Source: Oscillospiraceae bacterium (GTDB lineage: Bacteria; Bacillota; Clostridia; Oscillospirales; Ruminococcaceae). From it: DNA of 64,000 nt. Every line of letters begins with the position of its first letter. The first letter of the stretch is position 1. The notes beneath the pieces were generated by a model. The model was not told where the DNA came from and ran no database searches. It saw only the letters and a list, made by a program, of their open reading frames with translations. The position numbers and the translations under genes are program-made. Positions 20,230-21,917 of the stretch are shown piece after piece. The stretch spans positions 55,684 through 119,683 of the forward strand of contig JAJQGB010000016.1 of the NCBI GenBank assembly GCA_021200775.1, given 5' to 3'.

Positions 20230-20826
20230 ATGAAGATTTACGGCTATGTGCGTGTAAGCACGAAGGAACAGAACGAGGACAGGCAGATGATTGCGATGCG
20301 GGAGCAGGCTGTGCCGGAGAGAAACATTCTTCTCGACAAGCAAAGCGGAAAGGATTTTGAGCGACCGATGTATCGCAGACTTATGAAAAAGCTGAAGCCG
20401 GGCGACCTGCTCTATATAAAGAGTATCGACCGGCTAGGGCGAAATTATGAGGAGATTCAGGAGCAGTGGCGGATTCTTACGAAGGAAAAAGGCGTCGACA
20501 TCTGCGTAATCGACATGCCGCTTCTCGATACGAGGCGAGGGAAGGACCTCATCGGCACCTTCGTGTCGGACATAGTTTTGCAGGTTCTTTCGTTTGTCGC
20601 AGAAAATGAGAGAGTCAATATCCGACAGCGCCAGGCGGAAGGAATCGCCGCCGCAAAGGCAAGAGGAATCTCCTGCGGAAGACCGCCTTCGCCACTTCCG
20701 GATAACTTCGACGACTGCTACAAAAGGTGGAAATCGGGAGAGATTTCCTGCTCCGAAGCGGCAAGAGAATGTGGGATGTCGGTATCAACATTCAGATACC
20801 GAGCCGAAAGATATGAACAGGCGTAA
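20230..20826 (+). CDS. Small serine recombinase (resolvase/invertase family)
   Basis: The start at ATG 20230 ([14 protein letters not shown]) fits the family and has GAGGT upstream. The 198-residue protein has the nucleophile S10 in YVRVST, the [10 protein letters not shown] motif with active-site arginines, the E-helix region ([25 protein letters not shown]) and a C-terminal Hin-like helix-turn-helix ([23 protein letters not shown]). Length fits resolvases and DNA invertases, not large integrases. Its stop is 18 nt before the first of two inverted palindromic sites (20844-20866 and 20991-21013), the expected position for an invertase acting locally. No transposon ends were seen. Confidence 0.9.
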
Positions 20827-20843
20827 GTCTGTATAAAAAAAGA

Positions 20844-20866
20844 GCAAGAAGGTGTACCTTCTTGTA
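20844..20866 (+). other. Candidate recombination site 1 (palindrome with GT centre)
   Basis: CAAGAAGGT-GT-ACCTTCTTG has perfect 9-bp arms around an asymmetric dinucleotide, the geometry of a serine-recombinase crossover site (two-base stagger). The reverse complement of site 2 at 20991-21013 matches it at 19 of 23 positions, including all of GAAGGTGTACCTT. Confidence 0.6.
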
Positions 20867-20905
20867 ATCTGCACATACATATTCAGAAATCTTTTATTTA
20901 GAGTA

Positions 20906-20934
20906 ATTTTATCATAAGTCTTGACATATTGCAA
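20906..20934 (-). promoter_or_regulatory. Promoter-like sequence inside the putative invertible segment
   Basis: On the minus strand TTGCAA (20934-20929), 17 nt, TAAAAT (20911-20906). In the present orientation it points leftward, antisense to the recombinase gene; after inversion between sites 1 and 2 it would point to the AP2-domain gene. Confidence 0.5.
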
Positions 20935-20990
20935 GCCAAATCGGCGAAAGATGTCGAAAAATCACCCATAAATCTTCCAGATAATTTTGA

Positions 20991-21013
20991 ACAAAAAGGT
21001 ACACCTTCCTGTA
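20991..21013 (-). other. Candidate recombination site 2 (inverted relative to site 1)
   Basis: ACAAAAAGGT-AC-ACCTTCCTGT on the plus strand has the central dinucleotide AC, that is GT on the minus strand, so it is oriented opposite to site 1. Eight of ten arm positions are paired. Separation between the two centres is 147 bp. Confidence 0.6.
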
Positions 21014-21065
21014 TTTGTATATTTATTTAGTATAGGCTAATATGCGAAACAGCGAGGTGAGATGA

Positions 21066-21917
21066 GTGGAAGAAATCAAATCGCAAAAGACCGTTGCGCC
21101 GGGAAGCCGTTTCGGACATCTTACAGTTATCTGCGATTCAGGCGAGAGAAAGAACGGCTATATCGTGTGGAAGTGCCGCTGTGACTGCGGCAATATAATC
21201 AATGTGGACATGCGGACTCTCCGCCGTGGAACAGTCACCGATTGCGGTTGCCTGACGAAGCTTAATCCCTGGCAAAAGGACATCACCGGTCAGCGATTCG
21301 GCAAACTCACGGCGAAATATTCCATAGATAGGAAGGATTCAAGCGGCTCCTACTATTGGCGCTGTGTCTGCGACTGTGGTGGAGAAATAGATGTCCCACT
21401 CCGCCAGCTTCAGGCAGGGTATAGAAAAAGCTGTGGTTGTCTGTCTCATCCGCCACTGAAAGACTTTGTCGGAAAACGCTTCGGCAAGCTCACCGTCACC
21501 GAGTACTCAGGGAAGAAAAACGGCGTACATAGATGGAAGTGCATATGCGACTGTGGAAATGAAGTCACCGTCAGCCAGTCCCATCTTCAGAGCGGACAGA
21601 CTAAGAGCTGTGGCTGTATTCAGGCTAGCGTTTATGCCGAGAATATGAAGCTCATAGACGGAACCTCTGTGACAGCACTCGAATCAAGCCGCAACCGCCT
21701 TCGCTCAACAAATACAAGCGGACACACCGGAGTTTACTGGGACAAGAAGCAGAAAAAGTGGTATGCAAGAATTTGTTTCCGCAATAAGCAGTACTATCTC
21801 GGTTCTTATAAAAACAAAGAAGACGCCGTCAAAGCCCGCCAGCAAGGCGAAGAAATGCACGAGGAATTTCTTGATTGGTACTATAACGACTACCTCCTCT
21901 GCCAATCGCCGGAGTAA
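21066..21917 (+). CDS. Three Cys-rich repeats plus AP2 DNA-binding domain protein
   Basis: The 283-residue protein starts at GTG 21066 with GAGGTGAG 5 nt upstream. Residues 13-63, 75-126 and 136-186 are three copies of one unit: G-x-RFGxLT, then W(K/R)CxCDCG, and a closing CGC, each with five cysteines (for example C100, C102, C104, C123, C125), probably metal-binding. Residues about 215-275 form an AP2/ERF-like DNA-binding domain (GHTGVYWDKKQKKWYARI). AP2 domains in bacteria and phages are usually in homing-endonuclease-like proteins; no HNH nuclease motif is visible here. It lies directly downstream of the candidate invertible segment. Confidence 0.75.
   Translation: MEEIKSQKTVAPGSRFGHLTVICDSGERKNGYIVWKCRCDCGNIINVDMRTLRRGTVTDCGCLTKLNPWQKDITGQRFGKLTAKYSIDRKDSSGSYYWRCVCDCGGEIDVPLRQLQAGYRKSCGCLSHPPLKDFVGKRFGKLTVTEYSGKKNGVHRWKCICDCGNEVTVSQSHLQSGQTKSCGCIQASVYAENMKLIDGTSVTALESSRNRLRSTNTSGHTGVYWDKKQKKWYARICFRNKQYYLGSYKNKEDAVKARQQGEEMHEEFLDWYYNDYLLCQSPE

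Follow-up and report, generated by a model that had tools for sequence, protein, structure and literature searches.

The window, that is, the whole stretch of 64,000 nucleotides from an Oscillospiraceae bacterium that was analyzed, contains a small serine recombinase gene, a pair of inverted sites directly downstream of it, a predicted promoter between these sites and an open reading frame for an AP2-type protein. The features are listed below, the last one being located elsewhere in the same genome.

20142..20171, + strand: candidate promoter of the recombinase gene, TTGGAA-18-TATAAT, from a consensus scan and not above chance
20230..20826, + strand: small serine recombinase (P0001), 198 aa, resolvase domain and HTH-like C-terminal part
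20845..20864, + strand: recombination site A, CAAGAAGGTGTACCTTCTTG, centre GT at 20854-20855, perfect 9-bp arms
20854..21002, no strand: invertible segment, 147 bp centre to centre, related segments known in both orientations
20906..20934, - strand: predicted internal promoter, -35 TTGCAA, 17-nt spacer, -10 TAAAAT, TG extension, pointing to the recombinase
20991..21012, - strand: recombination site B, ACAAAAAGGTACACCTTCCTGT, centre AC at 21001-21002, inverted relative to site A
21066..21917, + strand: AP2-type open reading frame, the predicted switched gene, GTG start, three Cys-rich repeats and an AP2-like domain
G000:C9:258199-260637: stand-alone surface-type open frame, 2624 aa, homologue of the gene that follows AP2 in the related locus L039

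An earlier note on this DNA had placed the end of a small serine recombinase gene at 20826, and this assignment was confirmed by the open reading frame at 20230-20826 (+) and its match to the Pfam Resolvase domain (PF00239, 9.3e-28). The protein also matches a PHROG 'DNA invertase' family at 8.6e-51, and the match of its C-terminus to HTH_28 is below threshold (21.7 vs. a cut-off of 25). The residues R8, S10, R45, D67, R68 and R71, which we take to be the catalytic residues, are invariant in 13 aligned sequences including the enzyme of the window, and together with the Resolvase domain these invariant positions place P0001 among the small serine recombinases. It falls outside the Mpi family, scoring 42.7 bits on the respective model (NCBIfam PRK13413) compared to a cut-off of 272. 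Among solved structures, the best match is the chain 2r0q (1.3e-27), which is labelled Tn552 DNA-invertase bin3 and presumably Sin; the chains 4m6f and 3uj3, both labelled DNA-invertase and presumably Gin, match at 3e-14 and 5e-14, respectively.

The anatomy of the sites largely agrees with the earlier description. Site A starts 18 bases past the end of the recombinase frame and its reversed partner lies 147 bp further, with centres GT and AC at the positions given above, as had been reported. The accompanying claim of perfect-arm palindromes is correct for site A with its 9-bp arms but not for site B (8/10), and the 19 identical positions were found over 22 rather than 23 positions when reverse-complemented site B was compared with site A, GAAGGTGTACCTT being common to both. 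Since the GT/AC centres are asymmetric and inverted, the two elements qualify as serine-invertase sites. Only one palindrome with 9-bp arms and a 2-nt spacer, site A itself, is present in the 64-kb window, and approximately 0.35 would be expected by a rough composition estimate, so that this lone palindrome is not remarkable by itself. Chance palindromes were rejected as an explanation for the pair because, although a lone palindrome is not rare, the matched inverted pair is. A search for inverted 20-mer pairs (at least 17/20 identical, within 500 bp) gave five binned hits in the window vs. 0-1 in five shuffles; two of these bins represent the A/B pair, two represent operator-like repeats before the Fic gene and one lies near 14.2 kb. 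The exact core AAGGTGTACCTT has two copies in the 2.06-Mb genome, both at sites A/B, and seven one-mismatch copies elsewhere bring the total to nine, compared to 13 for the backward control. In addition, sites A and B are the only stretches of the window that score at least 11 on the family matrix (26.5 and 26.8), the window's own pair being one of the 33 training pairs of this matrix.

Recombinase matches at E <= 0.001 were found in 27 of the 31 genomes of the genus, many of them weak. For the family analysis the best 80 of 341 confirmed relatives were taken from the genome collection and four from a phage-contig collection (IMG/VR), and 101 loci with distinct recombinase sequences of at least 35% identity were scanned; 90 remained after 11 had been left out (below 60% identity or with less than 250 nt downstream). 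A matching site pair was detected within 700 nt downstream of the recombinase in 56 of the 90 loci, compared to 0/82 upstream stretches and 0/90 shuffled stretches in the same scan, so that the search of relatives for the enzyme together with its sites, proposed earlier as a check, had a clearly positive outcome. The family matrix was trained on 33 pairs from a matrix-free scan requiring matching centres, 32 of which are among the 56 counted loci, and 24 of the 56 loci lie outside the training set. In 48 of the 56 loci the site-A 22-mer starts 18-35 nt past the last aligned codon of the enzyme, and the segments measure about 105-175 bp between site centres. With the centre left unscored, matching centres were found in all 54 two-site loci, including 22/22 outside training: 49 were of the GT/AC type, two TT/AA, one CT/AG and two AT/AT. 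Inverted sites with asymmetric centres are thus present in 52/54 loci, and the other two are the AT/AT loci. The remaining 34 of the 90 recombinase loci are without a detectable pair, some of them with truncated or degenerate sites, and weak pairs include those of L077, L113, L074 and L108. A related cassette, with one weak site out of two, is present in the isolate Intestinimonas butyriciproducens An565 (L112).

Several loci deviate from the common layout. In L084 and L087 the centre of both sites is AT, which is self-complementary and hence does not encode orientation, and in these loci deletion and inversion should both be possible. Two tandem site pairs lie behind a single recombinase in L056, with centres CT/AG and then GT/AC, and L044 contains both GT-type and TT-type sites. 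The AP2-type loci L010, L012, L013 and L014 carry three sites, the additional one lying at a distance of 24 bp from one of the end sites in the same orientation, and the window is without this additional site; in most segments no further site scoring >= 11 was seen. In L041 (identical to L011), L105 and L048 the left half of site A is retained along with the complete or partial core, beyond which the sequence diverges, as if the site had recombined with a distant or cryptic one. Among the phage relatives from IMG/VR, no pair was found in L120 and L121 or, in the first scan, in L122 (below 60% identity), and L119 coincides in range with L079, which is without a pair. Three faecal phage records (enzymes 64.6, 64.0 and 54.4% identical), taken from 216 matching records, likewise contained no site pair, suggesting for this small sample that the cassette is not obviously a phage trait.

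Evidence for natural inversion was obtained by aligning the segments to each other after all had been given the same orientation of the recombinase gene. Twenty segment pairs aligned, 13 in the same and seven in the opposite sense, the latter at identities of 96.3% (L010/L014), 93.5% (L061/L066), 83.5% (L012/L013), 78.7% (L061/L074), 77.2% (L044/L046), 73.9% (L010/L012) and 73.5% (L013/L014); L010, L012, L013 and L014 are identical to the loci L039, L040, L042 and L045. By a separate promoter call, 7/7 opposite-sense pairs combine one ON with one OFF locus, and 12/13 same-sense pairs share their state, the other one including a tie. The loci L039 and L045 are collinear over approximately 7 kb at 79.5% identity, with a 190-nt stretch that is reversed at 95.8%. 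When L039 was flipped between the centres of its outermost sites, 232/240 positions matched L045 with no gap, compared to 160/240 matches and 18 gap letters for the unflipped sequence, and a similar result was obtained for L061/L066 (181/200 gap-free after flipping at the centres vs. 130/200 unflipped). Site A of L039 reads CAATAAGGTGTACCTTATTG, and that of L045 has the same left half and centre followed by the right half of the other site, which places the exchange within the shared AAGGTGTACCTT core. Both orientations hence occur between related genomes, as is characteristic of an invertible promoter (inverton). Since relatives carry the cassette in both orientations, with alignments that become gap-free only after flipping at the centres, the locus is very probably an on/off switch, which supports the earlier suggestion of a phase switch that is currently OFF.

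The relatives also provide support for a promoter at a preferred position within the segment. The best promoter-like scores of the 56 segments had a mean of 10.8, compared to 8.9 after dinucleotide shuffling, shuffled copies reached the score of their segment at a median frequency of 0.017 (0/60 in 17 of the 56 segments), and the -35 element starts 64-70 nt from the centre of the exit site in 40 of the 56. When orientation was called by simple consensus scoring, with narrow margins for some loci (e.g. L049, L093, L104), this promoter was directed at the downstream gene in 10 loci and at the recombinase in 42, four ties having been dropped; this excess of OFF describes assemblies only. On a 52-row recombinase tree the state changed 9 times compared to 9.4 times with shuffled labels (217-221 of 500 as low). 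Orientation changes are thus no fewer than with shuffled labels, so that orientation is not inherited with the enzyme. In the window, the minus-strand TTGCAA-17-TAAAAT previously described as facing away from the AP2 gene was located at 20934-20906 and faces the recombinase, i.e. the OFF arrangement. In this region four promoter-like sites were found by consensus vs. 3.2 expected; the match itself is therefore not above chance, and support for the promoter comes from its position in relatives. After inversion its -10 would end at 20950, which by arithmetic leaves a leader of ~110 nt to the GTG at 21066, the same distance as proposed before. The predicted start point would lie about 43 nt ahead of the exit-site centre in this case, compared to about 31 nt for the most common spacing in the family.

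We consider it highly likely that the locus is a phase switch that works by promoter inversion and has a recombinase dedicated to it, and that the earlier reader, who was right on the anatomy, is very probably also right on the mechanism. The recombinase (20230-20826) would bind the quasi-palindromic sites, A beside the stop codon of its gene and B 147 bp downstream of A, cut both at the two central bases and swap the half-sites, resulting in inversion of a segment that carries a single outward promoter. In the OFF state, as assembled, the promoter would be aimed at the recombinase and its transcription would probably be stopped at the site-A hairpin, while in the ON state after inversion the gene for the AP2-type DNA-binding protein would be transcribed behind a leader of about 110 nt. 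The corresponding switch of relatives precedes AP2 and a large surface-type gene. Adjacency suggests that the flipping is done by the adjoining recombinase and not by another one, and the inversions seen between related genomes suggest that this strain flips as well. Promoter activity, termination at site A, the role of the AP2 protein and the expression change of the switched gene are predictions from the sequence.

Among other explanations, the one that survives best is a decayed or locked switch, in which the family flips and the copy in the window no longer does. The loss or damage of a site in L011/L041, L036 and L114 and the position of the surface-type gene, which in relatives follows AP2 but in this genome is separated from it, would be in line with such decay, but the recombinase frame is intact with the expected invariant residues, and the two sites retain scores of 26.5 and 26.8 and share GAAGGTGTACCTT including the centre, so that we regard it as unlikely. 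Far less probable is the assumption that no flipping takes place and that the palindromes serve as operators for a repressor or as the recombinase's own regulatory sites around the promoter. Both sites are indeed palindromic and flank the promoter, and flipping in this strain is deduced from relatives and not from reads; however, operators would not need matched asymmetric centres that differ between loci, and related segments are known in either orientation and switch at the site centres. For the family, repressor operators were ruled out by the flipped related segments (L039/L045, L061/L066). Sin and plasmid resolvases resolve directly repeated sites with the help of accessory sites. Although the nearest solved sequence (2r0q, 1.3e-27) and plasmid-borne proteins 51-55% identical to P0001 among the matches listed connect the enzyme to Sin and the resolvases of Gram-positive plasmids, we give hardly any credence to a Sin-like resolvase of a mobile element or plasmid acting on the palindromes as its resolution site, an arrangement ruled out by the inverted sites, as asymmetric centres in 52/54 two-site loci indicate inversion and not resolution, most segments are without a further site scoring >= 11, and by eye no replication or transposition gene was noticed in the open reading frame list around the module (15-27 kb).

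The gene that the promoter-inversion switch would control in the window had been described as encoding a Cys-rich/AP2 protein, in which three Cys-rich repeats were found and the AP2 assignment reached only a sub-threshold Pfam match (23.2 bits vs. a gathering cut-off of 33.3). The open reading frame matches PHROG family 374 (HNH endonuclease) at 6e-64, but no HNH domain was found by Pfam, which argues against its membership in the AP2-type HNH homing endonucleases. When solved structures were searched with the sequence of this protein, a plant AP2 factor was matched once, below significance (E 0.18). The AlphaFold model of the protein (mean pLDDT 72.8, pTM 0.32, 7 sequences) predicts three copies of a strand-strand-strand-helix module, followed at the C-terminus by a three-strand-helix module that would fit AP2. 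Besides the window, AP2 is the cargo in L039, L040, L042, L045, L054 and L116. At an identity of at least 68% it occurs in five of the 31 congeneric genomes, in 5/5 beside a recombinase and a site pair, and five weaker or partial matches were found in four other genomes. Four of the 11 loci at 84-89% recombinase identity (L039-L049) carry AP2, L043 and L049 being short downstream. In L039, L042, L054 and L116 a very large surface-type open frame follows directly after AP2; L040 contains the start of a like large gene, and L045 is collinear with L039 through that gene. Pfam detected Cna_B in the large protein of L054 and FctA/DUF7601 in that of L116, and no domain in that of L039. In the window, the AP2 gene is followed by a Fic-family gene and not by a surface-type gene. 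The homologue of the L039 surface-type gene lies at C9:258199, ~180 kb away (67% identical over the first 402 query residues), with no switch site in the 5.5 kb around its start, suggesting that AP2 would act alone or in trans.

Cargo was taken mechanically as the longest + strand open reading frame starting within 350 nt of site B, and it was present in 52 of the 56 loci and differed between them. Pfam was run on 20 of these 52 frames and additionally on L044, L063 and L057, and no domain was found in 6/23. The domains detected include S-layer homology, cohesin, BspA-type LRR and VWA surface proteins, a TadZ-like pilus protein, C5-cytosine and Eco57I-type methylases (an MmeI-type match was sub-threshold), as well as MBOAT, acyltransferase-3, Ser/Thr kinase, NRPS condensation, SPFH/band-7 and STAS/APH domains.

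The geometry of the segments was analyzed in 15 loci with less than 80% enzyme identity and a clear promoter, a selection that removes shared ancestry only partly. Their site-to-site lengths (105, 106, 113, 115, 128, 136-139, 147 (three times), 156, 174 and 175 bp) cluster at a period of 10.5 bp (R = 0.54, jitter p = 0.012); among the eight periods listed, 10.0 gave the highest value (R = 0.61). The distance from the entry site to the -10 element showed a stronger concentration at 10.5, its best listed period (R = 0.82, 0/5000 jitters), and the distance from the -10 element to the exit is merely narrow and not specific for 10.5 (R = 0.48, higher at 11-13). That segment lengths track the helical repeat is less certain. 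Equally less certain is a second trend, concerning a hairpin that the site next to the recombinase forms in many loci and that tends to be more stable in OFF. When the native orientation of each locus was compared with the other one made computationally, the site-A hairpin was stronger in OFF in 36/52 loci, with a mean of -13.2 vs. -8.7 kcal/mol (Wilcoxon 5e-5, relatedness ignored), including 8 of the 10 loci now ON, and weaker in OFF in 15 loci, strongly so in L049. Hairpins below -20 kcal/mol were found in 9/42 native OFF and 0/10 native ON loci; with relatedness ignored, native OFF and ON differed in energy (p = 0.02) but not significantly in arm count (p = 0.07). L055 is an example of a relative whose OFF hairpin is strong. 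The window is an exception to this trend: its site A also provides the stem of a terminator-like hairpin on the minus strand, with CTCTTTTTTT directly after it, but the energy is the same in both orientations (-13.1 vs. -13.7 kcal/mol), which counts against an orientation-dependent terminator for this copy. A broader interpretation, possible but rather doubtful at present, is that of a widespread, portable, Clostridia-centred cassette with a dedicated recombinase, a helix-registered segment and promoter, and a site A that would be a terminator complete only in OFF, so that flipping would alter the insulation between recombinase and promoter, while differing centres would let tandem switches coexist as in L056.

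Hin, Gin and Cin are small serine recombinases acting on inverted near-palindromic sites with a two-base centre, and their inversion reaction requires a Fis-bound enhancer. The locus in the window shares the enzyme type and the site design with these flagellar (Salmonella) and phage tail switches. Unlike in Hin/Gin/Cin, the family segment is only about 105-175 bp long and the recombinase gene lies outside of it, and such a short, apparently helix-phased segment poses the question of how the two sites come together. The serine recombinase Mpi of Bacteroides fragilis inverts 13 regions (PMC4747536), and with its invertible capsule promoters it likewise represents a case of promoter segments that are inverted by a serine recombinase in a gut commensal. 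However, Mpi is a global invertase with many distant sites, while the recombinase in the window adjoins its own promoter segment and the genome contains no further exact copy of the site core. The invertons of Clostridia group 139 are similar to the present locus in having an enzyme nearby, but the respective survey ties them to tyrosine-type recombinases, which also account for its most significant inverton-enzyme link (PMC11892184), and the word 'serine' is absent from its main text. Phase variation is the subject of a review (PMC11868660). No earlier description of this recombinase-site family was found among titles and abstract openings in the open-licence literature. The locus is a variant of the known invertible promoters moved by serine recombinases, in what seems to be a dedicated portable cassette. 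With the data presented here a guess from sequence only becomes a Clostridia switch family with natural flips on record, and the site rule, i.e. a matched centre at the usual spacing beside a recombinase, allows candidate switches to be listed from genomes alone. Surface proteins, acyltransferases and DNA methylases as well as a pilus-assembly protein are among the predicted targets, which are of the kind that affects the contact with host, phage and competitors.

Two groups of repeats were observed close to the switch. The motif GCCAAATCGGCGAAA is located at 20935-20949 of the window, directly upstream of the -35 element of the flipping promoter, and three related copies with 23-bp spacing follow the AP2 gene (21924-21984). 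Allowing up to three mismatches, ten matches were found compared to a mean of 2.75 in shuffles, with 0/100 shuffles reaching ten; the pattern was picked from the window after being seen, and six of the ten are 3-mismatch hits elsewhere. No like cluster was present in the loci of the six AP2 relatives, which gave only four single 3-mismatch hits, or before the distant surface-type gene. The GCCAAATCGGCGAAA copies are a possible binding site of the AP2 protein. Further downstream, at 22037-22165, repeated and inverted copies of TTATTTCATTTT overlap a TTGACA-17-TATACT promoter of the Fic-domain gene, whose product shows a sub-threshold C-terminal winged-helix match, an arrangement that looks like autoregulation.
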